A DNA stretch of 64,000 nucleotides from a virus. The position numbers were made by a program, and so were the translations under genes. The number at the start of each line of letters is the position of its first letter. Position 1 is the first letter of the stretch. Of the stretch, positions 25,669-41,446 are shown piece by piece. The notes below the pieces were generated by a model that worked only from the letters and a program-made list of their open reading frames with translations, did no database searches and had not been told where the DNA came from. Location of the stretch: positions 1-64,000 of the IMG/VR virus record IMGVR_UViG_3300032236_001065; one strand, 5' to 3'.

Positions 25669-28600
25669 GTGGCTAATATTCAATTAAAGATTACCGCATT
25701 AGGTGATTTTTCAAGCGTTAACAATCAACTTAAAGCCCTTCAAACACAGGTACAACTTCTTCAAAAAAGTATTGCTGGTGTCGGATTAGATGCCAGCTTA
25801 ACAACACAACTTAAAAATGTTCAAAATGAGTTTAGTAATGCTTTAGTATCTAGCGGTAATTTTACAAAGCAAACAGTACAATTAACTTCTGAAACAGAAA
25901 AATTTGGAGCAGCACTTCAAGCTGGAAAGTTAAAGCTTGGAGATTATTTTAGTATTATTACTGGTCGCTCGGGTGCTGCTCAAAAATCCGTACAAGCACT
26001 TGCAGTAGAACAAGTTAAGCTTAATAACTCTATTGTCCAACAAGATATTACTAAGCAGGGTGTATATAGTGTATACACACCTACAACCATTAATGCTACT
26101 GCAAAAGCAGTTGAACTAGCAGCCGCCAAACAAAATATATTTAATATTGCTGTTCAGCAAGGATCTCAAAAGCTTATTGATTTTGGTAAGAATACTCAGT
26201 GGGCAGGTCGTCAGCTTACTGTTGGTCTTTCTATGCCAGCCCTGCTTTTTGGTAGCCAAGCTGTTGCAGCTTTTAAGGCAGTAAATACAGAATTAACAAG
26301 ATTGCAAAGACTTTATGGTGAAGGTCTTACACCCCCATCACAAGCACAATTAACACAGATCTCTGATCAAGTTATTAAATTGGGCGCACAAGTTGCAACT
26401 CAAATGGGTATTGCACAGTCAGAAACTGTTAAAGTAGCAGCAAACTTTGCAGCTATGGGTAAAGAAGGTCAGAATCTTCTTGATGTAACATATCAAGCAC
26501 AAAGACTTTCTAAGCTCGGTGCTATTGATGCAACACAAGCAACAAACACTATTGTTTCGCTACAAAACGTTTACAAGGTAAGCACTATGGATCTTGCCAA
26601 CGCAGTTAACTTTATGTCATCTATGCAGAAGCAAACCACCATGTCGCTTCAAGATATGACTGATGCAATTCCTCGTGTTGGACCTATCATGGCACAACTT
26701 GGTGGTTCATACAAAGACACAGCAGTTATGCTTCTTGCAATGCGTGAAGCTGGTGTACCAGCAGCCCAAGCCGCTAACGCACTTAAATCAGCATTTGCAT
26801 CTATCATTGCACCAACTTCAGCCGCAACAAAAGAGTTTGCATCGTTCGGTATTAACCTAGATAAAATTAAATCATCTGGAACACCAGTACAAATGCTTAT
26901 GGCTCTGCAGTCAGCTCTTGTAGGAATAGCTCCACTTGCAAGAGAGCAGTTAATTGAAAAGTTATTTGGTAAGTTCCAGTTTGCTCGTGTGTCAGCACTT
27001 CTTGATAACTTTGGAAAAGTAGGATCTCAAACACAAAACGCTTTGAAGGTAGCTGGTGCAACAAATGCACAGCTTGCAACTTTGGCGGGACAAGAAATGG
27101 CTCAAGCTACAGCTTCTACTACAGCTAAATGGCAAAGAGCAATAGAAGGACTTAAAGCTTCACTATATCCAATTGGTCAAAAGATTCTTGAAGTAGGAAC
27201 AAAGATTATGGACTTTGGCCAAAAGATTGCAGATTTCTTTAATAAGTTACCTGGCCCAATTAAATCAGGTTTAGGAATTTTGCTTACACTTGGAGTTATA
27301 GCTGGTCCAGTAATTATGATTACTGGTTTGTTTGCTAACTTATTTGGACAAGTAGTAAAGGTTGGATACTCACTACTTGGTGTTATTGATGGAAGTAAAA
27401 AGTGGAGAGAATTAATGACTCCCGCTGGAATTGCTGCAAAGACAGCAACAGATGCATTTCAAACAGGGTTGCTTGAAAATGTTACTGCAGTAGATACCCT
27501 TAACGCCGCACTTCAAAGATTGATTACAAGTCTTGAAGCAATCAATACTGCAATGAATATATCAACTGGTTCTGCAATAGTTAGTACTGTAGAGGCAGGA
27601 TTAGCTGGCGGAAAGATACCATTCAAAGCACCAGGAATGGCTACAGGAGGAGTTGTTCCAGGAACAGGAAACTCAGATAGTTATCCTGCAATGCTCACTC
27701 CAGGCGAAGCGGTAATTCCAAAGAGTGCAGTAGCAGAACATGGACCACTAATCAATGCAATTATATCTGGAAGTTTGCCAGGATATAATGGCGGACTTAG
27801 AGCTAATGTAAGACAGCAATATGGTGGAAACTTTAATTATTTGTCTGAAAGCGGAAATATAAGAAGTTATGCAGATAGAGAAGTAGCACACCTTGATGCT
27901 CCAATAGATTTGCCAACAGGTGCAAGTGAAGAAAATGCAAAAGTTGCGATGTACCATAGAGAAATAAATCAAGGTACAAACAGTGGCATGTCAGCACAGG
28001 ACTACTTAGATTATTTAAATGGACAAACAATGTCTGTAGGCAATGGTGGCAGATTAATGCCAAAGCTAAGAGTCGTTGATGCTGCTGGCAATCCAGCTTC
28101 AAGATCAATTACTCATAGTCAAGAATTGGCATATGGACCAATGGCAACAACTGCAGGTATCACTGATCCAAAACAAAGACAAGCTTTTTATGATGAAATT
28201 GATAAAAGAATAAAGGCTTGGTTAGAGCCTTTGGCTAAAGCTAACAAGCAGATTAAAGATGTCGCAGGACCAGGACAAGAAAGTGCAACACAAGTTGGTC
28301 AAATTGTTAATGAAGTATTAAAACAACAAAGCTTTGGACAAACTCAAGATGCAATTAGTACTTTGGAAGCACCTCTTGAAACAAGAACTACGGGTAAGGG
28401 AAGATCGGGAAGAACTAGAAGATTTGTAGGTGGCGATACTAGAATATCTGGTATAGTGTCAAAGATACTAGCTGGAAAAACAGTAACTAAATCTCAAGAA
28501 GATACCTTGATGGCATCAGGACTTATTGATTCAGGAAACTTTTCTAAGCTTGATTCAGAAGCAAGAAAACAACTTGAGATAGAATCTCCTTCCAAAAAGG

Positions 28601-31224
28601 GAGAAGCTACAGGAAAATCATATGTTTCTGGAGTACAAAAAGGTGTCAAAGAACAAGCACCTGAGTTATGGACTGAAGGCAAAAAAGTTGTTTCATCAAT
28701 GCATGACGGAATTGAAGAAGGACTTAATGGATCTGCAGGTCAATCAAAGATACAGTCAATATTTAGTAGAGCATTCGGTGCTAATTCTCGTCTAGGCGGA
28801 ATGATGTCTAAATTCTCTGGTATGGGAATGATGGGCCGTATGGGTGTTGGTATGGGCATAACAACAGTTTCACAGATGGCTTCACCGCTACTCAGCAAAC
28901 TTCCTGGTGGTAATTTAATTACAGATGCAATGTCTGGTGCTGGAATGGGTGCAGGATTTGGACCTTGGGGTATGGCGGCGGGAGCCGCAATAAGCCTTGT
29001 AACAGGTGGCATAAAGTCATTAATGGCTATGGAAAAACAACATGCTGCAGAATCTAAAGCAGACTTTACATCAAGTGCAGATGCAGTTCAATTCCTAGGT
29101 GGTAAAGTTGTTGATACAACATCTCATCTAAAAGACCTAAATATTGTACTTAATAATCCATCAAGCGGAACTTCAAATGCTGCTAAAGCTTTGGGTGCAA
29201 ATATAGCATATACAAGCCAGCAGTTAGACAGCTTTGCTTCAATGGTAAAGAGTTTACCAAAAGATAACTCTCTAGCATTAGTAATTAAACAAGTAAAAGA
29301 TGCAGGAGATTCAGGATCTGCAGCAAAAATAGCAGCTGAATTTGCAACACTTAATCAGGCTATTAATAATACAAGTCCTACACAAGCAAAGCAGCTTGAA
29401 CAATTAATATTAACAGTTGGCGGTAAAGATGCAAGTGCGGCAAAGCCTCCAGTTGCAAACCAGCTAGATGCAATGAGAGCATCACTAAGTGCCGCATTGC
29501 CAAATGGAAAACAATTCTCACAAGTAATTGGACAAATTACAAGTGCAGCATTAAATGCTAACTCCCTAGATAGCATAAATCTAGCTATAAAAGCAATCGG
29601 TTCTTCATCGGCAACTGCCGAACAACAAGTAGCGGGACTATTAGGGTACTTCACCCAGCTAGGAAATTCTGGAGCCATAAAGCTTATAACTGCAATGCAA
29701 GGACAGGGCGGGTTTAACGGAGGAGACATACTTAAAACCCTTGCAGCATATCAAGGCGGAGCTAATATTACTTTTGCAACATTGTCAAAAGACCTTAAGT
29801 CTGGAGCAATAGATAAAACACTTACAGCACAAGAGGATAAAAGAAAGAAAAATGCTAAAGAAATTGCAGGTTTGCAAGATCAACTTAATAAACTGCAAAA
29901 TGCAAATACATCTGGGCAAATAGCAAATACAGCTGCAACAAATGCAGGGCTTCCAGCATTAAATCAAAGACAAAAGCTTCTTGATGCAAATCTTAAAAAG
30001 CTTCAAGATTTGCAAAAAGCACAAACTCAAAATACAAATTATGCTACAACAAAAGAAGATCTTAAGAATCAAATTCTTATGGCTCAAGCCACAGGCGATA
30101 ATCTTAAAGCCCAGTTATTACAGCAACAACTCATGGGTGCTACAAAAGACTTTAATTTACAAAACAGTGTAGATAAAGCACAACAAGCAGCAGATGCTAA
30201 TAGATTAGCAATAGATCAAGCAAATGCTCAAGCAACTACTTTGCAGACTACTGCACAAAATAATAATACTGCGGCAATAGATGCATTGACTAAAAAAATT
30301 GCTGCTTTACAAAATGGTCCGAACCCAGGATCAATTAACATGGACTCAACGGCTGGACAAAAAGGCCCAGGTTTGTCAGCATCTGGTTTTGGATCATTAA
30401 GTGATTTAAATAAGTTTAAAATTTCTCCAAGCGTAGGTGCTACATTTACTGGGCAAGATGGAAAGCAATATAAGATTGCTGGTATAAATAAAAATCCAGG
30501 AAAAGGCCTTTTGCCAACATTCCAAGCATATCCAGTTTCAAAAGCAGATGGTGGACACATAACTGGACCAGGATCTTCAACATCTGATTCAATACCAGCA
30601 ATGCTTTCAAACGGTGAATATGTAATCAATGCAGGTGCAGTATCACATTATGGTAAGGGAACATTTGATGCTCTTAATGCCCGCCATCTTGCTAAAGGCG
30701 GGGTAGCAAGAACTAACTCTTCTATTACTTATCACCGTCAACACATGAATAGAATTTCTCGTCACTTTGCTAACGGCGGTATTGTTGATATGTTAATGGG
30801 TAATGCCATTGGTAATGCAGAACACCAAATGGGCAGTGCATTAAGTTTCTTGAGTAAAGAAGCCCTTGAAACAGTTGGAATTAGTCCAGCATTAAGATTG
30901 TTACAAGGTAAAAAACAAAGTAATTGGGATTATTTAGGAGTTGCTTCAATGTTGGCTGGGCCAGCAAAAGGCTTGGGATTAATTCCAAAAGCACTCGGAC
31001 CTTTGGCAGCTTTGTTAGAAGGCGCAGATCTTACTCAAAATACATTTGAAGCGGCGGGTAATTTGAAACAAAGTGCAGCTGGGTCAAATCACATATATAA
31101 TGTAAATGTGAATGTAGCAAAGGTTGACTCAACAGTGGATATGGAAAAGGCAATTCATGATGCAATGTCCAAGATTGATGCAAAAGCAAAGATGAGTGGT
31201 AGAGTAAGCGTGGTGGGTGGATAA
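25669..31224 (+). CDS. Tape measure protein
   Basis: 1851 residues, start GTG three bases after the chaperone extension. The N-terminal quarter is helical with a phage TMP-type region (TQWAGRQLTVGLSMPALLFGSQAV...AREQLIEKLFGKFQFARVSALLDNF). A hydrophobic stretch near 534-562 may insert in the host membrane during DNA entry. Two Gly-rich cassettes (about 655-700, TPGEAVIPKSAVAEHG; and 1630-1680, SDSIPAMLSNGEYVINAGAVSHYG) are a hallmark of actinophage tape measures. At roughly 1.5 angstrom per residue the tail would be near 280 nm long. Confidence 0.93.
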   Translation: MANIQLKITALGDFSSVNNQLKALQTQVQLLQKSIAGVGLDASLTTQLKNVQNEFSNALVSSGNFTKQTVQLTSETEKFGAALQAGKLKLGDYFSIITGRSGAAQKSVQALAVEQVKLNNSIVQQDITKQGVYSVYTPTTINATAKAVELAAAKQNIFNIAVQQGSQKLIDFGKNTQWAGRQLTVGLSMPALLFGSQAVAAFKAVNTELTRLQRLYGEGLTPPSQAQLTQISDQVIKLGAQVATQMGIAQSETVKVAANFAAMGKEGQNLLDVTYQAQRLSKLGAIDATQATNTIVSLQNVYKVSTMDLANAVNFMSSMQKQTTMSLQDMTDAIPRVGPIMAQLGGSYKDTAVMLLAMREAGVPAAQAANALKSAFASIIAPTSAATKEFASFGINLDKIKSSGTPVQMLMALQSALVGIAPLAREQLIEKLFGKFQFARVSALLDNFGKVGSQTQNALKVAGATNAQLATLAGQEMAQATASTTAKWQRAIEGLKASLYPIGQKILEVGTKIMDFGQKIADFFNKLPGPIKSGLGILLTLGVIAGPVIMITGLFANLFGQVVKVGYSLLGVIDGSKKWRELMTPAGIAAKTATDAFQTGLLENVTAVDTLNAALQRLITSLEAINTAMNISTGSAIVSTVEAGLAGGKIPFKAPGMATGGVVPGTGNSDSYPAMLTPGEAVIPKSAVAEHGPLINAIISGSLPGYNGGLRANVRQQYGGNFNYLSESGNIRSYADREVAHLDAPIDLPTGASEENAKVAMYHREINQGTNSGMSAQDYLDYLNGQTMSVGNGGRLMPKLRVVDAAGNPASRSITHSQELAYGPMATTAGITDPKQRQAFYDEIDKRIKAWLEPLAKANKQIKDVAGPGQESATQVGQIVNEVLKQQSFGQTQDAISTLEAPLETRTTGKGRSGRTRRFVGGDTRISGIVSKILAGKTVTKSQEDTLMASGLIDSGNFSKLDSEARKQLEIESPSKKGEATGKSYVSGVQKGVKEQAPELWTEGKKVVSSMHDGIEEGLNGSAGQSKIQSIFSRAFGANSRLGGMMSKFSGMGMMGRMGVGMGITTVSQMASPLLSKLPGGNLITDAMSGAGMGAGFGPWGMAAGAAISLVTGGIKSLMAMEKQHAAESKADFTSSADAVQFLGGKVVDTTSHLKDLNIVLNNPSSGTSNAAKALGANIAYTSQQLDSFASMVKSLPKDNSLALVIKQVKDAGDSGSAAKIAAEFATLNQAINNTSPTQAKQLEQLILTVGGKDASAAKPPVANQLDAMRASLSAALPNGKQFSQVIGQITSAALNANSLDSINLAIKAIGSSSATAEQQVAGLLGYFTQLGNSGAIKLITAMQGQGGFNGGDILKTLAAYQGGANITFATLSKDLKSGAIDKTLTAQEDKRKKNAKEIAGLQDQLNKLQNANTSGQIANTAATNAGLPALNQRQKLLDANLKKLQDLQKAQTQNTNYATTKEDLKNQILMAQATGDNLKAQLLQQQLMGATKDFNLQNSVDKAQQAADANRLAIDQANAQATTLQTTAQNNNTAAIDALTKKIAALQNGPNPGSINMDSTAGQKGPGLSASGFGSLSDLNKFKISPSVGATFTGQDGKQYKIAGINKNPGKGLLPTFQAYPVSKADGGHITGPGSSTSDSIPAMLSNGEYVINAGAVSHYGKGTFDALNARHLAKGGVARTNSSITYHRQHMNRISRHFANGGIVDMLMGNAIGNAEHQMGSALSFLSKEALETVGISPALRLLQGKKQSNWDYLGVASMLAGPAKGLGLIPKALGPLAALLEGADLTQNTFEAAGNLKQSAAGSNHIYNVNVNVAKVDSTVDMEKAIHDAMSKIDAKAKMSGRVSVVGG

Positions 31225-31754
31225 TGTCATATATGCTGAATGCTGGAATTGAAATATCAATAGATAACTCTACTTGGTATAAATTAACTGATGATAATCG
31301 TCAACCCATTAAAGTTGCATATGAAGTTATTGAAAAGACTAACCGCATGGCAGACGGAACACTCCGCCGATATGTTATTGCAAGAAAACATAAAATAACT
31401 GCATCTTGGCAAAATGTCTGGAGCAAAACATCTTTATCTACAGATAAAAATTATGCGGGAGCATGGATGAAATCATTCTATGAAGCCAATGTCTTTATCC
31501 CAATTTATGTAAGATTAACAATAGCTTCTGCAAATACTCAGAATATAAATACTACAAACGGATTTATTCCTACAGAAACAATTGCAACAGCAGATGTATA
31601 TACAAATGGAGATACATATGTGCCATCATATGTTGCAAATAGTTCTGGCAACATGACATACAACGTCTTTATAACATCATTTGATTATGAAGTTTTAAAG
31701 CGTAATAAAGATTTTGACTTGGTAAACATTAATATAGAGTTTACGGAGATCTAA
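31224..31754 (+). CDS. Minor tail protein (distal tail candidate)
   Basis: 176 residues, TAATG overlap with the tape measure gene. The protein is beta-rich, with an aromatic-rich middle (TASWQNVWSKTSLSTDKNYAGAWMKSFYEANVFIPIYVRLTIAS) and a C-terminal strand VNINIEFTEI. The gene directly after the tape measure normally encodes the distal tail or first baseplate protein, and that is the best guess. No residue pattern proves it. Confidence 0.55.
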   Translation: MSYMLNAGIEISIDNSTWYKLTDDNRQPIKVAYEVIEKTNRMADGTLRRYVIARKHKITASWQNVWSKTSLSTDKNYAGAWMKSFYEANVFIPIYVRLTIASANTQNINTTNGFIPTETIATADVYTNGDTYVPSYVANSSGNMTYNVFITSFDYEVLKRNKDFDLVNINIEFTEI

Positions 31755-34700
31755 TGCTAGGTACATCAACAATTCAACAATACTTCGCATCTGGAGATTC
31801 ACATTATGTGCTCCCGCAAGTTTCACTTGAGTGGAACTATAATCTTTTCTATGCTCCATATGTCACAACAAACGGGGCGGGAACAACAATAGTTCCTACT
31901 GGAACATGGTCAAATGGACCATCAACATCTAATGCAGGTAGAATAACAACAGTATTTCAAGCAGATACATCACAGACTACCAGATCATGCTATCTGTTTA
32001 GTACAACATCAGGATCAAATTCATCTACACTAACTATATCTAATTTAACAAACACAACCAATACATACAAGATTACTTTCTATGCAAAGGTTGATAGAGA
32101 TGCAACTGTAAAGCTTTCAGCGTTAGCAATGATTGATTATCATAGAGCACACTCAGTATCACAAGATATTGATAGTGTTACATGGACTAAGTTTGAGGTT
32201 TACTTAAGTTCCCGCCCAACACAAACACCATATTCAAGCCCGACACTTTCTCTGCATCATTCAGCAACTGATGGTACATCTACTTATGGAATTTTGATTG
32301 ATCAACTTGAAATGCATCAAACAACAGACTTTGAATATCAGTATGGAAACCTATGGACTACATACTCTCCTTTTCATGCGTTTAGACCAGGAGAAAGCTT
32401 TGTTCCTTCGGGTAATGCTCTTGTTCAGCATCCATCAAACTTCAGACAAATAAAATATGATTTCCAGACCAGCTACTATGATTTTAATAATCAAACAATG
32501 CCAGTAAGTCCAGTTGTATATCACCCAACTCTGCTGGCAACAGATACTTCAAATCCAGTATATAAAAACGGTTTCTTATCAGAATGGTCTCAGTATAAAT
32601 ATTTTGTAGCAGATTCAACAACCCCATCTTTGACTGGAATATATGATAAAACTCTTAATACAAATAAAATTGTAATAAAGTTTAATCTTTCATATGCAAA
32701 CCCATCAAGCTTTACTGTAAATTTATCAAATAATACAAATTCAAGCGGAACATATACTAATAGCTATACAACAAGTGTTAACCTAACTAATGCAGATATT
32801 GATAGTTCAGGCACTTGCATTTTGTACCTTCAGGTTGACGGATCTTGGAAATCAGCCGCTGCTGGTGGATCATGGTCAGTTACACCACAGTTTGATTTTA
32901 ATGGTGTAGTTAGATTTGGTGGTAATAACGGAGCTTCAGCTGTAAAACAAATTAATCAAATTACAGTGACGCAAAATTCAGCAAACTTAAATGCATACTA
33001 TTCTTCAAAGTCGTCTTCAACAAACGCTACCATTATAACTAACAATCCAGATAAAACAACAACCACAAACCCTGGAACAACGTTTGATGAAACTGCTCAA
33101 ATGAAAAGAATGCAAGTCATTGAAGTATCTCCTAGACTAGAGATTGATGTTACATACTTCACCATGTCAGTTGATACGAATGCTCAGCTTGATAATAAAA
33201 TGAACCCACTTCCAATTTCCGCTATATCTTCAAATATGGCAACTATCACACTTTCAAATGTGCCTCTAACAGTAAGTAGCCAAGTTCTAACATTGTTTTC
33301 AAATAACTCATCAAGTTCAATATTGAAAGGCTTGTTTAGAAATTATGTTAAATGCTATGTGAACTATGTTATTAAGGATACAGTTGCAGGAGCAACATCT
33401 TCAGATAAATTTATACCAGGCGGAGTATTCTATGTTGATACCTGGGATGGTAAAGATATTGAAAAAACTGTAATAACTGCATATGACAGCACAAAGTATT
33501 TGCAGCTTGCACAGCCTACAGACTATGTTTCACAATCAGAAGATGCTTTTAGACTTATAAGTAACATACTAGATTTTGCAGGATTCACAGACTATAACTA
33601 TGACGAGCTTAGAAGAGTGTGTAGATCAACCGTAAAGCTATCAGATGGAACTATAAAAAATAGTACAGCACCATTAAAGATGAGATATTTTTATGTTGAT
33701 GGAACTCAGCAAAAGGTTTTTGATGTGCTTAGAGAAATTTTTGAAGTCTATCAAATAGCCGCATATATAGATTCATATGGTGTAATGAGATTTATTAACG
33801 TTGATGGAATTTTTGATCCATCAAATAAGATTAATATGCTTCTACATGATAATAAAACTTCACAATCAATCAGCACCGCAAATGGATATGCAAATAACCT
33901 TACTGTTGATAGCAATATTGTACAAGATACATATACTGAAACAGTTAAAACTAAAGTAGGAAAAGCAACACTTACCTATAAAACACCTCAAGTTGTTAAG
34001 ACTTTAAAAGCAGATCAGTCACTTCTCAATGATAATCTTTATGTAAATGTTCCACCAACATATCAGACTTCAGCAAATGTTATTTGGGATTCAACTATTG
34101 ATGAATCAACTACCTATAATCACCTAGCAGAGACAATGGATCTAACTGCTACTAAATTTAGAGTGCCAGATAATGAAGCAACGGCAGCAACAGGTGCAGT
34201 GAATTTTAATTCATATGGAATAGATCACGACGGATTTGGAATTATTGAAGGTGAGATTGTAAGCTTTAAATACAAAGAATTTTTGTTCTCTACACCAGCA
34301 GGAAATCAAATAAGATCAATTGCAAACTCTTCAGACTTTGCCGCCCAATTTGCAGAAGTAGTTGAGCAGACGGGAACTAATAGTGATATTACAGTTACAA
34401 GAACTGGGTACATCACAAACGTAGATAGAGGACTATTTAATACTCCCGTAAGAAATCACGTTAAGATGTCAACGCTAAACGATATACAGCAAAAATTTGA
34501 TACTTCTGCTGCAACAGCTATCTCTATTCGCAACGGAGATTTGATGCTGACATCAAACTCTGGAGAAATATCAAAGATAACATGCTTAGACCCATATTCA
34601 ACAAATGGATCACTTAATGATTATAAAACTTTTTCAACTAAAATTTTGATGGGTGCTAATGCAGGATCTTCTGGGGTATATCCGACGGGAACTAAGATGG

Positions 34701-35887
34701 GTCTTGTCATGCACAATACTTCCAACCAGCCTAGTATGTATGTATCAATAACACAGCAAAAAGATTCAAAAGGAAATGATCAATATTTACTTTCAGCAAC
34801 ATCTGATGGAACTACAAACTTACTTATTCCAACAATGCCACATGTAGATGTAACTAATATTATAAAAGCTCAAGGAACGCTTTATGATATCAATTCTCCA
34901 TTCTCAGAATATAGTAAGTATATTAATCTTAAAGTAGTTATAAAAGACCCTACACAATCTTCATCAAATCCTAATGCACTTTCACCAAATGCTTTTGAAA
35001 TATTTATTAATAGATCAAGAGTGCCAATTCATACATCTATAACTACTCCGCCAAACACCAGTGGAAAATTTGGTGTATTTGTATCTGGAACTTCTGCAGC
35101 AGTAAAATTTGCTGAGGTTTATGCAACCCAAAGTTGCATAGATGATCAAAATATATTTTATCATTATCAATTGCCTTGGTTTGCTGAAAAGATTGCAAGT
35201 AATAAAAAGATTCTTGAAATTAGTTACATAGTACAGCCAAGCCCAGTAATTATTGGAATAAACTACTATGACATTAAAGATGCCCAAGCACCTTCCCTAG
35301 ATGCATTCCCATTAAAACTTATGTACGATTGGTACTATATTGTTGATCCATCAGCTCCGCTTGTTGTAAATACAAATACAACAACACCTAATCTTCCTTC
35401 AATACAGGTTGATGAATATGCACTTAATTATTCACCAGTCTACCATTCTGGGTTCAGAAGTAGATTTGCAATTGTTAACTGCTCCCCGTCCCAAGTCTGG
35501 ATTAAAAAAGCAGCAGATACAATTAATAAAATCAATGTTGATTTTAGCTTAGTTACCGATACTCTCATCACCTTGGGCCCAGATGTCACTATTGAAAAAG
35601 TTTTTGATGAGGCAAATATAAATGAAGTGGTTGATATAACCTCAAGCTGGGTACAAGATAAAAATACTGCAACTTCAATTTTAAGAACTATATACCGTGC
35701 TTTGGACGGGTTTTCAAGAGACACTACAATATCAATCTATGGAAACCCATTATTTGAAATTGGCGATATTGTAACCATTAATTATGGCCTAAAGAACATA
35801 ACTGGGCAAAAATATTTTGTACAAGGCGTAGAGCAAATTTTTGATACAGGCTTAACAACATTGCTTACTTTAAATCAGATTGGCTGA
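31754..35887 (+). CDS. Large baseplate hub / tail tip protein
   Basis: 1377 residues, TAATG overlap with the previous gene. Residues about 1-200 form a carbohydrate-binding-module-like beta-sandwich (NTTNTYKITFYAKVDRDATVKLSA). The middle (about 460-680) resembles hub proteins that bind the distal tail ring: GGVFYVDTWDGKDIEKTVITAYDSTKYLQLAQ, then FRLISNILDFAGF. A C-terminal GNPLFEIGDIVTINYGLKNITGQKYFVQGVEQIF segment also fits tail hub proteins. Size and position are those of a siphovirus tail tip scaffold. I see no peptidase or lysozyme motif. Confidence 0.72.
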   Translation: MLGTSTIQQYFASGDSHYVLPQVSLEWNYNLFYAPYVTTNGAGTTIVPTGTWSNGPSTSNAGRITTVFQADTSQTTRSCYLFSTTSGSNSSTLTISNLTNTTNTYKITFYAKVDRDATVKLSALAMIDYHRAHSVSQDIDSVTWTKFEVYLSSRPTQTPYSSPTLSLHHSATDGTSTYGILIDQLEMHQTTDFEYQYGNLWTTYSPFHAFRPGESFVPSGNALVQHPSNFRQIKYDFQTSYYDFNNQTMPVSPVVYHPTLLATDTSNPVYKNGFLSEWSQYKYFVADSTTPSLTGIYDKTLNTNKIVIKFNLSYANPSSFTVNLSNNTNSSGTYTNSYTTSVNLTNADIDSSGTCILYLQVDGSWKSAAAGGSWSVTPQFDFNGVVRFGGNNGASAVKQINQITVTQNSANLNAYYSSKSSSTNATIITNNPDKTTTTNPGTTFDETAQMKRMQVIEVSPRLEIDVTYFTMSVDTNAQLDNKMNPLPISAISSNMATITLSNVPLTVSSQVLTLFSNNSSSSILKGLFRNYVKCYVNYVIKDTVAGATSSDKFIPGGVFYVDTWDGKDIEKTVITAYDSTKYLQLAQPTDYVSQSEDAFRLISNILDFAGFTDYNYDELRRVCRSTVKLSDGTIKNSTAPLKMRYFYVDGTQQKVFDVLREIFEVYQIAAYIDSYGVMRFINVDGIFDPSNKINMLLHDNKTSQSISTANGYANNLTVDSNIVQDTYTETVKTKVGKATLTYKTPQVVKTLKADQSLLNDNLYVNVPPTYQTSANVIWDSTIDESTTYNHLAETMDLTATKFRVPDNEATAATGAVNFNSYGIDHDGFGIIEGEIVSFKYKEFLFSTPAGNQIRSIANSSDFAAQFAEVVEQTGTNSDITVTRTGYITNVDRGLFNTPVRNHVKMSTLNDIQQKFDTSAATAISIRNGDLMLTSNSGEISKITCLDPYSTNGSLNDYKTFSTKILMGANAGSSGVYPTGTKMGLVMHNTSNQPSMYVSITQQKDSKGNDQYLLSATSDGTTNLLIPTMPHVDVTNIIKAQGTLYDINSPFSEYSKYINLKVVIKDPTQSSSNPNALSPNAFEIFINRSRVPIHTSITTPPNTSGKFGVFVSGTSAAVKFAEVYATQSCIDDQNIFYHYQLPWFAEKIASNKKILEISYIVQPSPVIIGINYYDIKDAQAPSLDAFPLKLMYDWYYIVDPSAPLVVNTNTTTPNLPSIQVDEYALNYSPVYHSGFRSRFAIVNCSPSQVWIKKAADTINKINVDFSLVTDTLITLGPDVTIEKVFDEANINEVVDITSSWVQDKNTATSILRTIYRALDGFSRDTTISIYGNPLFEIGDIVTINYGLKNITGQKYFVQGVEQIFDTGLTTLLTLNQIG

Positions 35888-35925: not shown

Positions 35926-37053
35926 ATGGCGGGTTCAGTACAGAAAAGAACTACAGGTAAACCAGTCACTGGTACAGTTGCCGCTGCCATAAAGAAAAAG
36001 CCTGAAATTTGGATTGGTCCTAATGACCCAAGAAATGATCCAGACTATATAAGAAACTATCCTGGGACTATTCATCAGCTTACAGCAGCTCAGTTCGCCG
36101 TATGGCTCAAAACACAATATTCTGAGGCGGGAGTGGCAGGAGTTGTTTCTTCAGCAGACCTATATGCAGGAGATATACCAGACTCCAGTCAAGTTAATGG
36201 ACAACTTGACAACACCCTTTTACCTCCATCAAATATAAAGTGGGATGGAACTTTTACAACAGTAAATACAGATATTGGAATTTTGCAGGATATAGAGATT
36301 ACATTTGATCCAGCTCCAGAAGATCCATTTGATGGAAGTTTTGTATATCATGTTTATTATGAAGCAGAGGGTTCTGTTGCAACACCTCCAACAGCTGCCA
36401 CAGCTCCAGCCGCAAGTGCATCGGTAATTCAAACAGTTGCCAATAAAGCTATTGTTACGTCAACAACAACTCCTGTAAACGGAGTAGTTACCGCTGCTAC
36501 TGGAAATGGAACTACAATTACTTATACATGTGCAAATAATTTCTCAGCTGGTCAATCAGTAACAGTCACAGGCCTTGGAGTAAAATCTGGAGTATCATTA
36601 AATATTTCAGGATTAACTATTTTGACTGCAACAAGTACATATTTTACAGTAAGCAGCAACAAGGTCGGTGTGTCTTCAGGAAAGGGGTCTGCAACATCTA
36701 CAGTAAAGAAGATTACAACTCCAGTTAAAACATCCAGCACACTTCAATTTAAATTTCCTGCAAAGACAAACGCATCTTCATATACCATTACAGTTACTGG
36801 ATCAAATTTGCCAAACAGCTCTGGACAAACACAGATGACATATACAGGCATACCAGCTACAGGTGGATCAAAGGCTTACACATCTGGAACAGTACATGGT
36901 AGCTACGCTTTGGTAAAATCAGGCAGCAATATAACATTTACATTAACTCAAACAAACGGCAGATCGTACAGTGGTTCATATTCTGCTAAAATACAAGTAC
37001 ACTATGCAAAATCATCTTCCGTGGAGGTAATCAGTGAATCAGTCACAATTTAA
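35926..37053 (+). CDS. Minor tail protein, beta-rich, repeat-like C-terminus
   Basis: 375 residues behind a good promoter (TGCTATAAT) and a TAGGAG site. The N-terminus is basic (QKRTTGKPVTGTVAAAIKKKP), followed by IWIGPNDPRNDPDYIRNYPGTIHQL and a beta domain (DIEITFDPAPEDPFDGSFVYHVYYEAEG). The rest is Ser/Thr-rich with Ig-like strands (TITYTCANNFSAGQSVTVTGLG; SYTITVTGSNLPNSSG). It looks like an elongated tail-tip protein of stacked beta domains. It overlaps the next gene by 20 bases. Exact role is unknown. Confidence 0.6.
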   Translation: MAGSVQKRTTGKPVTGTVAAAIKKKPEIWIGPNDPRNDPDYIRNYPGTIHQLTAAQFAVWLKTQYSEAGVAGVVSSADLYAGDIPDSSQVNGQLDNTLLPPSNIKWDGTFTTVNTDIGILQDIEITFDPAPEDPFDGSFVYHVYYEAEGSVATPPTAATAPAASASVIQTVANKAIVTSTTTPVNGVVTAATGNGTTITYTCANNFSAGQSVTVTGLGVKSGVSLNISGLTILTATSTYFTVSSNKVGVSSGKGSATSTVKKITTPVKTSSTLQFKFPAKTNASSYTITVTGSNLPNSSGQTQMTYTGIPATGGSKAYTSGTVHGSYALVKSGSNITFTLTQTNGRSYSGSYSAKIQVHYAKSSSVEVISESVTI

Positions 37054-37969
37054 AGGTACATATGTTTTTAAGCAAAACGGTATTGAGATTGGAAGATCTT
37101 CAAATCTTATAACCAACAATGGAAGAAAGATGCTGATGCAATATTTGGCGGCTTCAAGAGTGGACTGGTCTGCAGATATAGCCATAGGTGCATTACCAAC
37201 AACTCCTACAGCTACAGATACACAACTTAACTTTGAAACAGGTAGATATCCAGTTATTTTAAAAAGCTATATAGCAGCTAATGCAACCACTGGAGATCCT
37301 GATCTTATTGTGATTAGAGGAACAATTCCAGAAAATACATATGCCAACATATATGAAATTGGCACATATGCTACAACCAACAGAAATTCCCCGTCCTCAA
37401 ATAAAAATAACTTGATTCTTACTGATATGTCAGATGTAGCCAATTGGACAACACCAGCGGGATCTATATCTACAAATGTCTTTACACCACAAGGTGCTGC
37501 ATCTCCAAGAATTGGTCAATATTCAGTTACTATATCAAATAGCACTTTGTATCAGAATACAGGACTTGCTATACCATTCAGTAACTATAGCTCTATAGAC
37601 TCTTTGCAGATACTTGTATACAACACAGTAGCGGGTAATGTTTCAGTTACATTAACCGACGTAGCTGGATATACACAAACAATTAACTTTACACTAACCA
37701 ATAACACAGGATATTCTGTTTTATCAACTAATTTTGATACAAGTGTAGGCACGGGAACAGATAAAACAATATCTAACTTTAATTACATTTCATCAATAGC
37801 AATAAGAACTGATTCAACTGCAGCACTTACACTTGATGCAATTAAAACTTCAAGTGCAGCAGAAATATCTATGGAAGAATCAATAGTTAGTAAATCAGTG
37901 TTAACTACACCAATAGCAAAGCTTTATAACGTACCATTGGATATAGAATATTACGTTGAACTACTATAA
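37034..37969 (+). CDS. Minor tail / baseplate protein
   Basis: 311 residues, start GTG chosen because GGAGGT lies five bases upstream. The N-terminus (GTYVFKQNGIEIGRSSNLITNNGRKMLMQYLA) with a following IAIGALPTTPT resembles tail-tip proteins in which a GxxxLITNxGR segment precedes a beta domain. A second beta-rich half (LQILVYNTVAGNVSVTLTDVAGYTQTINFTLTN) looks carbohydrate-binding-module-like. Found between other tail-tip genes. Function is inferred from position. Confidence 0.6.
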   Translation: MNQSQFKGTYVFKQNGIEIGRSSNLITNNGRKMLMQYLAASRVDWSADIAIGALPTTPTATDTQLNFETGRYPVILKSYIAANATTGDPDLIVIRGTIPENTYANIYEIGTYATTNRNSPSSNKNNLILTDMSDVANWTTPAGSISTNVFTPQGAASPRIGQYSVTISNSTLYQNTGLAIPFSNYSSIDSLQILVYNTVAGNVSVTLTDVAGYTQTINFTLTNNTGYSVLSTNFDTSVGTGTDKTISNFNYISSIAIRTDSTAALTLDAIKTSSAAEISMEESIVSKSVLTTPIAKLYNVPLDIEYYVELL

Positions 37970-37986: not shown

Positions 37987-39159
37987 ATGGCGGGTTCTCA
38001 GTCATTAATAGTAAAAGGCTTACAGCCAAACACTATTTATAAATTACAAGTCTATGCAGTTAAAACTGTTAATGGAACTGTAACACATTCACCTTCTACT
38101 ACAACAACAATTACAACTGGTGCAAATAGCACAGGTGGAAATAATTTTAAAGTTACAAATGGTGGAACCGATATGCAGCTTGCAGGCGGAACCATCTACG
38201 CTGGAACTTTTGATGATGGCCTAGGACAGCTAGACCCGTTGACTGGATCTTCAGATGGAGTTACTCCATCCGCATTAACGGCATCAAACTATGGAGTAGC
38301 ATTAAATCAGTTTGGAATAATGGCTTATAATGGTGGAACTCCAGAGTTTTATATTGACTCAAGAACTGGCAATGCATTTTTTGCAGGCACACTTACAATT
38401 GGATCTATTACTGATGCAGGCGGGGCTACACAAAGCTCTGTAGATAGTTTAAGTGGCTCTATAAGCAGTATATCTAGTTCATTGTCAAACTATATATTAC
38501 AAAGTGGATATACTCCACAAACATTTACATCCATAGGTCATGGAACAGTAAATACTGGAACTTTATATTCAAATAACCTTACAGTTCCATTGACTGGAAC
38601 ATATGTATATTCCACAACTGGATCATATATTGATTTATCAACAGGTGCAATTATTACTCCAAGTCTTGCCATATGGCCACCCGCAGTAGATTCTACAACT
38701 CCGACTGGACCAAATCACGATACAAATAACTGGTCCGCATATTTTGCAGGAACACTGATGAACTCTTTAGATGGACAAAATGGAATTGTTATACAAAGCT
38801 ACACTAATCCTCCATCTAATATAAGTGGTGGAACACCTATCGGTGGTACGGATGCGGCATATTCTATTAACTTTAATAAAGCTGGAACAACATATGCAAG
38901 TATGGGTTTATTCGGAACTAATAATTTTTCAATTTCTTTGGCAAATTCCAGCGGAGCTGTTGCGGGTTATTTAGATCTTGGTGTTTACGCCACAGCAATT
39001 GGAGGATACAATAGTATTCAGCTAAACGGATCAGATAATAGAATATGGCTACAAAGTTCTACTCCATATAATCAAAGCGGCTTAAGAAATATAATTGCTG
39101 TATCATCAACAGCAAGTGCACCTTCAGGCAATAATGGTGATATTTATGTTACATACTAG
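37987..39159 (+). CDS. Tail fibre protein with partial FN3 and fibre domain
   Basis: 390 residues, AGGAGG upstream. The start (SLIVKGLQPNTIYKLQVYAVKTVNG) is the C-terminal half of a fibronectin type III domain. A linker leads to a tail-fibre segment (GQLDPLTGSSDGV...ALNQFGIMAYNGGTPEFYIDSRTGNAFFAGTLTIGSI), a pattern seen in central tail fibre proteins, then a Ser-rich helix (SSVDSLSGSISSISSSLSNYI) that could trimerise. The remainder is beta-rich with a C-terminal region like those after fibre shafts. Likely part of the tail tip. Confidence 0.65.
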   Translation: MAGSQSLIVKGLQPNTIYKLQVYAVKTVNGTVTHSPSTTTTITTGANSTGGNNFKVTNGGTDMQLAGGTIYAGTFDDGLGQLDPLTGSSDGVTPSALTASNYGVALNQFGIMAYNGGTPEFYIDSRTGNAFFAGTLTIGSITDAGGATQSSVDSLSGSISSISSSLSNYILQSGYTPQTFTSIGHGTVNTGTLYSNNLTVPLTGTYVYSTTGSYIDLSTGAIITPSLAIWPPAVDSTTPTGPNHDTNNWSAYFAGTLMNSLDGQNGIVIQSYTNPPSNISGGTPIGGTDAAYSINFNKAGTTYASMGLFGTNNFSISLANSSGAVAGYLDLGVYATAIGGYNSIQLNGSDNRIWLQSSTPYNQSGLRNIIAVSSTASAPSGNNGDIYVTY

Positions 39160-39167
39160 GAAATAAA

Positions 39168-40871
39168 ATGGCAATAAAAATAAAAGTTGGAAGTACATGG
39201 ACTTCATTAAAAGGCATGTTTATAAAAAAATCAGATAATTTGTGGTATCCAATAAAAAAGGGCTATATATACTTTAATAGTGGATGGAATTTGTTTTTTT
39301 CTTCATATAGTGGACCAACTCAGCTCACCTCTCCAACCTTGTCTGGAACAGGTGCTGCTTTGACAAATTTAACTGGCACTTCAGGAACCTATCAATCTGG
39401 CACTTATATTTCAAAGATATCTTATGTTGGAGCAATACTACAACAGTATATACCATCTGGCGGAGTTGTTAACGGATTAACAACTTCAAGCCTTGGAGAT
39501 GCTGGTAATTCTCCATATACAATTACACAGTCTGATGCCACAAATCCATCATATTATTTTTATTATGTTGATGCCGTAACTGGAAATGATTCTCAAGTTT
39601 ATTATTATTATAGTGCTTCTATAAAAGCATATATACCTACTGTAACTGACAATTTTAATAGATCCGTATCAAGCGGCCTAGGAACAATGTCAAGTGGATT
39701 CACATATGGATTAAACAACCTAGACTCACACTGGAAGACACAACAAATAAGTGGTAGTAATTATGGAGCAATTGTTTCAGCATTGCCAGCATCTAATGCT
39801 ACTCCTTCAAATTATCCGCTTGAAGCAATTGAACTTACAGGTAAAACTGATATTACGGCACAAATTGATATACCGTATCAAGGAACAGGTCCAGGTATTG
39901 CTTTTTGGGCCGCAAGCGGTTCACAATGGTGGGCAGCATCAACAAGTCAAAGTTCGTCCAGTGGTACGGCTTATACGTGTAGTCCAGGGACATATACATA
40001 TTATAATTGTGGAACTTCAGGCACAACTACAGTAACAGATTGTTTTGGAACAACTTTGCTTTGGAATGGAACTACTCAAACTCAAGCACACAATATTGCA
40101 TATTCAAATTGTGGAAGCGGGTCATGTACCATTACAGATTTAGGTTGTTCACCTGTCACAAACTATGTATGTGATATTTCTAACTCGTATGGATATACGG
40201 GATCACAAACTACATATTCTGCAACTGCAGCAAACGTAGGCAAGCCATGTGCACTAGATTATTCAGCATATCCAACATTTTATTATTATCGTGTAGCTGC
40301 TCAAACAACTACAAATTGTCAATCATCTTGTACATATGAAACTTATTCTGCATCAACTTGTAGTGGTAGTGCAAGTTATTCTAATAACACAACTACAGGA
40401 ACATGTGGATGTAGTTCTGCACAAACTGGTTCAAATTGTAGTGGATCAACAATAAATACAGATTCTGGCGGGACAGGTTGTGGTTCTTGTGCGGTTGCCA
40501 CTGGAACGGTAACTACATACTATACTGATATAGTTATATATTCTGCAAGCGGATCTGCAGTCACATTAATGTGTAGTTCACCTTCAGCAAATGGTACTAG
40601 CTGCATCTCATCTTCAGGTTCAACACACATGTCTTCAAGTAATAATTCATATGCCACAATTGCTCCAGGCAGGATTAAGGTTGTAACATCGGGGAATAGT
40701 GTTGTAGTATCTGCATATGATAGTACTTTGACTAATTCACTAGGCACATTAACATACAATGCAACGTCTCCAACAAAAGCAGATGCTAATGGTTCAAGCT
40801 ATGCGGGAATCATAATGACACCGAGTACGACAAACTATGACCTTTGGGCAGATAATCTTTCTATACAGTAG
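39168..40871 (+). CDS. Tail tip / receptor-binding candidate with cysteine-rich insertion
   Basis: 567 residues. The N-terminus (IKIKVGSTWTSLKGMFIKKSDNLWYPIKKGYIYFNSGW) is an anchor type common to phage tail-tip proteins. A jelly-roll-like domain begins near 160 (DNFNRSVSSGLGTMSSG) and runs to GIAFWAASGSQWWAA near 255. It is then interrupted by about 210 residues (271-479) holding 18 cysteines, after which the fold resumes (APGRIKVVTSGNSVVVSAYDS...YDLWADNLSIQ). All cysteines of the protein lie in the insertion. As last large tail gene it is the best receptor-binding candidate. A strong promoter follows. Confidence 0.68.
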   Translation: MAIKIKVGSTWTSLKGMFIKKSDNLWYPIKKGYIYFNSGWNLFFSSYSGPTQLTSPTLSGTGAALTNLTGTSGTYQSGTYISKISYVGAILQQYIPSGGVVNGLTTSSLGDAGNSPYTITQSDATNPSYYFYYVDAVTGNDSQVYYYYSASIKAYIPTVTDNFNRSVSSGLGTMSSGFTYGLNNLDSHWKTQQISGSNYGAIVSALPASNATPSNYPLEAIELTGKTDITAQIDIPYQGTGPGIAFWAASGSQWWAASTSQSSSSGTAYTCSPGTYTYYNCGTSGTTTVTDCFGTTLLWNGTTQTQAHNIAYSNCGSGSCTITDLGCSPVTNYVCDISNSYGYTGSQTTYSATAANVGKPCALDYSAYPTFYYYRVAAQTTTNCQSSCTYETYSASTCSGSASYSNNTTTGTCGCSSAQTGSNCSGSTINTDSGGTGCGSCAVATGTVTTYYTDIVIYSASGSAVTLMCSSPSANGTSCISSSGSTHMSSSNNSYATIAPGRIKVVTSGNSVVVSAYDSTLTNSLGTLTYNATSPTKADANGSSYAGIIMTPSTTNYDLWADNLSIQ

Positions 40872-41158: not shown

Positions 41159-41446
41159 ATGTCAGAAAAATCACCGTGGCAAATATGGAAAGAAAAAAAT
41201 GAAGGTGATTCTGTAAGACCTTGGGATTTAATTAATCCAAATATTAATAATGTTCCAGAAGACACATTTAATCATAGATTTGAAATATGCAAAAATTGTC
41301 CATCTTTAATTAAACTAACAAATCAGTGTAAAAAGTGTGGTTGTTTTATGAATGCAAAAGCTAAGCTTCCACATGCTACATGCCCAATTGGAAAGTGGGG
41401 AGCTTACCATGAAGTTCCAGATCTCGTGGAAGAACAGGGGGAATAA
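41159..41446 (+). CDS. Small zinc-ribbon protein (95 aa)
   Basis: 95 residues. After a polar N-terminus (PWQIWKEKNEGDSVRPWDLI) it carries FEICKNCPSLIKLTNQCKKCGCFMNAKAKLPHATCPIGKWG: two CxxC pairs and an extra CxC-type pair expected to bind zinc. It is a paralogue of the 59-residue gene at 12348. Proteins of this pattern are common in cyanophages and freshwater phages but have no assigned role. It abuts the next ATG with no gap. Confidence 0.72.
   Translation: MSEKSPWQIWKEKNEGDSVRPWDLINPNINNVPEDTFNHRFEICKNCPSLIKLTNQCKKCGCFMNAKAKLPHATCPIGKWGAYHEVPDLVEEQGE

Follow-up and report, generated by a model that had tools for sequence, protein, structure and literature searches.

The ultralong third heavy-chain complementarity-determining region (CDR-H3) of bovine antibodies forms a two-stranded stalk on a beta-sandwich and bears a disulfide-rich variable knob, and these stalk-and-knob antibodies favour even numbers of cysteines (PMC7366855, PMC5994613). 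Phage receptor-binding proteins diversified by diversity-generating retroelements (DGRs), such as Mtd and the tentaclins, carry their variable recognition surface on a lectin-like frame that is itself conserved (PMC10743442), and the fibre domains of mycobacteriophage Douge bind mycobacterial surface glycans (PMC13033339). Here we describe a gene at 39168–40871 on the plus strand of a 64,000-nucleotide stretch (the window), i.e. positions 1 to 64,000 of the 81.5-kb IMG/VR virus record IMGVR_UViG_3300032236_001065. It encodes a 567-residue protein with 18 cysteines, in which a cysteine-rich insertion interrupts a conserved jelly-roll domain. We consider it probable that this is a distal tail receptor-binding protein with a variable, disulfide-scaffolded knob on a lectin-fold head.

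The knobs of this protein and its relatives would work like the bovine CDR-H3, with a stalk, a variable disulfide-rich knob and a preference for even cysteine numbers, although there is no homology; the bovine knobs are much smaller and are diversified by V(D)J recombination and somatic hypermutation. The DGR-diversified proteins share the variable surface on a conserved lectin-like frame, but they have a C-type lectin fold, vary by point changes at template adenines and need a reverse transcriptase (PMC10743442). No reverse transcriptase (PF00078) was found in 16 records, comprising the window's own and those of 15 relatives, several of which are fragments, and a DGR origin of the knob diversity was rejected. 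Gp20, which sits in the distal tail of the actinobacterial phage Douge, is similar in fold to L045, a relative of the window protein, whereas the identity is 11 % and the paper describing gp20 makes no use of the word 'disulfide'. The jelly rolls of CBM66 and of legume-type (concanavalin-like) lectins have the same general fold as L045, with weak E-values and no sequence match. We know of no such lectin that carries a knob of this kind. The chances seem to us evenly balanced that the family is a phage counterpart of the bovine stalk-and-knob antibody, in which a constant lectin-fold frame would carry a hypervariable, fully disulfide-scaffolded knob that determines tropism, is diversified without a retroelement and is oxidised once the virion has left the reducing cytoplasm. 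A disulfide-scaffolded knob would then be a second route, beside retroelement hypermutation, to a hypervariable phage recognition surface on a fixed frame, and the knobs of the family would offer a natural collection of disulfide-rich binders grafted onto stalks.

A cysteine-rich insertion within a jelly roll

All 18 cysteines of the protein are located within residues 271–479 (nucleotides 39978–40604) and none elsewhere. The mean cysteine share of the other main open reading frames (ORFs) of the window is 0.48 %, and the binomial probability of 18 cysteines in 209 residues is ~3e-17. The sequence-only reading, which had pointed out this cluster, was thus confirmed as to the cysteines, while the boundary of the insertion had to be corrected: the insertion proper covers approximately residues 271–442 and contains 16 cysteines, between a strand ending at residue 271 and a strand at 443–461. 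The other two, Cys469 and Cys479, lie C-terminal to the point where the fold resumes, in a separate mini-loop (MCSSPSANGTSC; 40572–40604, plus strand) with one predicted disulfide. Based on alignment the mini-loop is specific to the window protein; it is lacking in L036 and L001 and, as a unit, is not found in L019 either.

The protein begins with an N-terminal anchor of ~46 residues (39168–39305) with short W-x-x-V/I repeats, common to many phage tail proteins. When relatives were used as queries, the anchor region alone matched Burkholderia, Rhizobium, Vibrio and Pelagibacter phages, one of the Rhizobium phage matches being annotated as 'receptor recognition protein', and the anchor is a widespread attachment module. 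It is followed by a predicted beta-rich spacer domain (residues 49–156, 39312–39635), which has strands in the AlphaFold2 (AF2) model, 76 % identity to L001 and no Pfam match. The first half of the lectin-like jelly roll (residues 158–262, 39639–39953) was defined by alignments and by matches to the hidden Markov model (HMM) jrN, and its predicted local distance difference test (pLDDT) values are mostly 76–91. From it the outgoing stalk strand (residues 253–271, 39924–39980), assigned by AF2 and DSSP, leads to the first cysteine at its end. The cysteine-rich knob (residues 271–442, 39978–40493) was delimited by alignments and by its low pLDDT, and the returning stalk strand (residues 443–461, 40494–40550; AF2 and DSSP) opens the second half of the jelly roll (residues 443–567, 40494–40868), supported by alignments and a half-domain HMM. 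All of these features are on the plus strand. In the AF2 model the flanks have pLDDT values of mostly 76–94, with some weaker stretches, and the two strands on either side of the knob, 19 residues each, are predicted to pair as a two-stranded stalk, as judged from secondary structure and not from coordinates. Cys, Thr, Ser, Gly and Tyr are abundant in the knob and charged residues are scarce.

Three syntenic relatives were compared with the window protein: L036 (61 % identity, 14 cysteines), L001 (47 %, 10 cysteines) and L019 (~28 %, 14 cysteines). The jelly-roll halves align throughout in all three, with the cysteine-rich segment lying between ...FWxxxxxxWWAAS and (T)YYTDIVIYSA.... The earlier proposal that the jelly roll is interrupted and then resumes is borne out by these continuous flanks, and the AF2 model agrees with it. 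All 14 cysteines of L036 align with cysteines of the window protein, the extra ones being a set of four (327, 384, 469 and 479). Cys327 and Cys384, missing together in L036, are predicted to form one of the disulfide pairs.

The jelly roll was also modelled with confidence in the relative L045, the AF2 model of which has pLDDT values of 92–98 across most of it. Foldseek matched this model to the central fibre protein gp20 of Douge (PDB 8ZDP, E 1.9e-4, probability 1.00), to CBM66 (4b1m, TM 0.74 on the target, with a weak E of 0.057) and, weakly, to several L-type lectins (E 0.03–0.1). The domain is a two-sheet beta-sandwich of the concanavalin-like lectin/LamG/CBM type, on the L045 model and not on the window model alone, and by sequence it matched no curated lectin or CBM family, nor any other Pfam or PHROG entry. 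Among the neighbours by structure in BFVD are minor tail proteins from Arthrobacter, Rhodococcus, Gordonia and Streptomyces phages. The best structural matches there, UniProt A0A6J5RDN1 and A0A6J5KM36, are uncharacterized proteins of uncultured Caudovirales phages with 30 % identity to L045, and they are likely unannotated members of the same domain family.

Cysteine parity and divergence in the family

When the jelly-roll alignment was used to scan viral contigs, 10 loci and then 80 were obtained. Two half-domain HMMs delimited 57 distinct domains among them, which fall into 43 clusters at 80 % identity. The insertions of the family range from 85 to 494 residues and from 6 to 54 cysteines. 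The sequence-only reading assumed that phage tail proteins are rarely rich in cysteine, which does not apply to this family, where many cysteines are the rule. For the jelly-roll domain no matching Pfam or PHROG family was found. The window protein, L045 and L047 as queries had no matches among annotated phages, and with L019 and L001 such matches were limited to the N-terminal anchor. There was no match to the window protein in plasmids, no host or prophage copy in two scans of GTDB genomes and no credible match in a PDB sequence search, and searching with a degenerate DNA motif from the edge of the insertion gave no hits; a literature search on cysteine-rich phage tail proteins gave nothing relevant. 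This is an uncatalogued jelly-roll domain family of uncultured phages, absent from the protein-family libraries searched. Among its members, L102 (3926–5401) and L158 (2905–4275) have extreme knobs, the former with 54 cysteines in CCTGxNNC-type repeats, the latter with 50 cysteines and many CC and CxxC pairs. In L103 (3863–5929) and L150 (2857–4851) the jelly roll has no insertion and is followed by polyproline linkers and a 44-cysteine C-terminal region.

The number of cysteines in the insertion is even in all 44 representatives with distinct insertions, while S, T, G, Y, N, A, P, V and Q, counted in these insertions, reach even numbers in 17–25 of the 44. It is likewise even in 43 of 43 clusters at 80 % identity, one of which is the L103 group with no insertion cysteines. 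The parity rule was read off the initial relatives and then the 43-cluster data, and the final scan was run with the rule already in hand: all seven further distinct phages were even, with 8, 20, 18, 18, 12 and 50 cysteines in insertions and 44 in a C-terminal tail, these counts excluding one jelly-roll cysteine (L150) and one cysteine before the likely Met start (L158). L123, L124 and L125, in which the first half of the jelly roll is weak or undetected, have 32 cysteines each on the likely-Met start reading, and L088 has 10. At least 29 changes in cysteine number fall on the flank tree. Of the control ORFs from these loci, all having six or more cysteines, 8 were even and 11 odd, and the single cysteines found outside the insertion in a few members do not follow the rule. 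In exported proteins, an even number of cysteines is accepted as indicating disulfides (PMC7678975), and the family has the even counts that complete pairing, as in disulfide-rich extracellular domains, would give. Universal even parity points to intrachain disulfides, since it would be produced neither by interchain bonds nor by free thiols or neutral drift.

In several relatives the insertion has diverged more than the flanks. L066 and L070 have 98 % identical flanks and 50 % identical insertions; for L048 the corresponding values are 97 and 60 % with L051, and 82 and 24 % with L055. Over 203 codons the flanks of L066 and L070 differ by 3 nonsynonymous and 9 synonymous changes, whereas their cysteine region has 53 nonsynonymous changes, 17 synonymous changes and 16 gaps over 120. 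The raised synonymous share hints that segment exchange adds to selection in the divergence of the knob. The expectation of a hypervariable insertion between conserved flanks thus holds for several relatives and for the window protein compared with L001 (insertion 0.26, flanks 0.52 identity), and fails for its comparison with L036, which is discussed below.

Proposed receptor binding and competing explanations

The cysteine counts also bear on the possibility that the cysteines bind metal, in zinc-ribbon-like CxxC pairs or in clusters. CxxC is present in 32 of the 54 insertions, that of the window included (CGSC). However, four-cysteine sites would favour multiples of four and 24 of the 54 counts are 2 modulo 4, histidine to complete mixed sites is absent from 35 of the 54, and counts of up to 54 without a fixed motif are unlike metal sites; Cys and His are not arranged in sets of four. 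Metal binding therefore appears very improbable, and of the two options offered by the sequence-only reading, a disulfide-rich or a metal-binding region, the universal parity favours the former. Growth of neutral low-complexity filler by tandem repeats would suit some plainly repetitive knobs (the CCTG units of L102, and L116), but under neutral drift half of the counts should be odd, against 44 of 44 and then 7 of 7 even, and the repeats in the window insertion are only short and imperfect; we give this explanation next to no credence. The insertion might also be a disulfide-stabilised structural element, serving virion durability, protease resistance or subunit contacts with no host contact. 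Even parity indicates pairing and not binding, and some syntenic genes without a knob have even-numbered cysteine-rich C-terminal tails (L012 with 10, L014 with 4, L016 with 12 and L023 with 6 cysteines). On the other hand, the knob diverges far faster than the frame in several close relatives, which is typical of recognition surfaces, and the frame resembles glycan-binding tail domains. We regard a purely structural role as unlikely.

A receptor-binding protein with a disulfide-scaffolded knob would operate as follows. The N-terminal anchor would attach the protein to the tail tip and the concanavalin-like jelly roll would form the head, two neighbouring strands of which would be extended into a two-stranded stalk bearing the knob of ~170 residues. 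The 16 cysteines of the knob and the 2 of the side loop may all be engaged in intrachain disulfides, which would maintain the shape of a charge-poor chain that is rich in Thr, Ser, Gly and Tyr and has no conserved hydrophobic core. With such scaffolding the sequence, length and disulfide pattern of the knob would be free to change while the frame stays constant. Diversification in the family would proceed by fast substitution, insertions and deletions and probably exchange of gene segments, no retroelement having been found here. The cytoplasm is reducing, and oxidation of the knob would presumably take place after lysis; the knob would contact the host surface. Fold, position and variability together suggest receptor binding.

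Several points weigh against this interpretation. The disulfides and the binding are inferred, and 18 cysteines would have to pair correctly in a protein made in a reducing cytoplasm. The pLDDT of the knob is mostly below 50, its disulfide geometry was not readable, and a Foldseek search with the full-length model of the window protein itself had no significant PDB match, presumably because the low-confidence knob and the extra domains dilute the signal; the support for the fold comes from L045. Parity among close relatives is not independent evidence, which is why the tree-based count of changes was used. Compared with its nearest relative, L036, the knob of the window protein has not diverged faster than the flanks (0.60 and 0.64 identity for insertion and flanks, respectively), and the contrast is also missing in L042/L043 and in the L075 group.

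In this family a virion part made in the reducing cytoplasm would have to gain up to 27 disulfides. A thioredoxin-like gene is present in six of eight knob-bearing records, including the window's own (record positions 72009–72251, L127:474–770, outside the window, with a WCNPC motif), and in one of ten knobless syntenic relatives, that one having a cysteine-rich tail. As the knobless records are mostly shorter fragments, no conclusion was drawn on a phage thioredoxin as the oxidant of the knob.

Tail module and host

The gene is the final large ORF of a tail module, syntenic in L036, L001 and L019, in which all genes named here are on the plus strand. The module includes the tape measure protein (25669–31224), a minor tail/baseplate protein (31754–35887, phrog_10359), a tail protein (37034–37969, phrog_9983) and a preceding distal tail protein (37987–39159) with a weak, sub-threshold fn3 match. 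In other relatives with the same module, the gene at this position keeps the N-terminal anchor and the C-termini differ. A distal location at the end of the module and swapped C-termini are features of phage receptor-binding proteins. Proteins distantly related to the minor tail protein occur in 127 Streptomyces phage records, and an actinobacterial host is therefore likely.

In L010 (10822–12908) and L011 (16912–18549) the syntenic tail gene ends in a Hint-like region (intein/hedgehog-type; CIQGDTLVRT...), for which the Pfam scan gave fn3 only. Just downstream of the window gene, at 41159–41446, a small protein with six cysteines in CxxC pairs (Pfam DUF6171, phrog_13558) is encoded, which is also present in L001 and L036.
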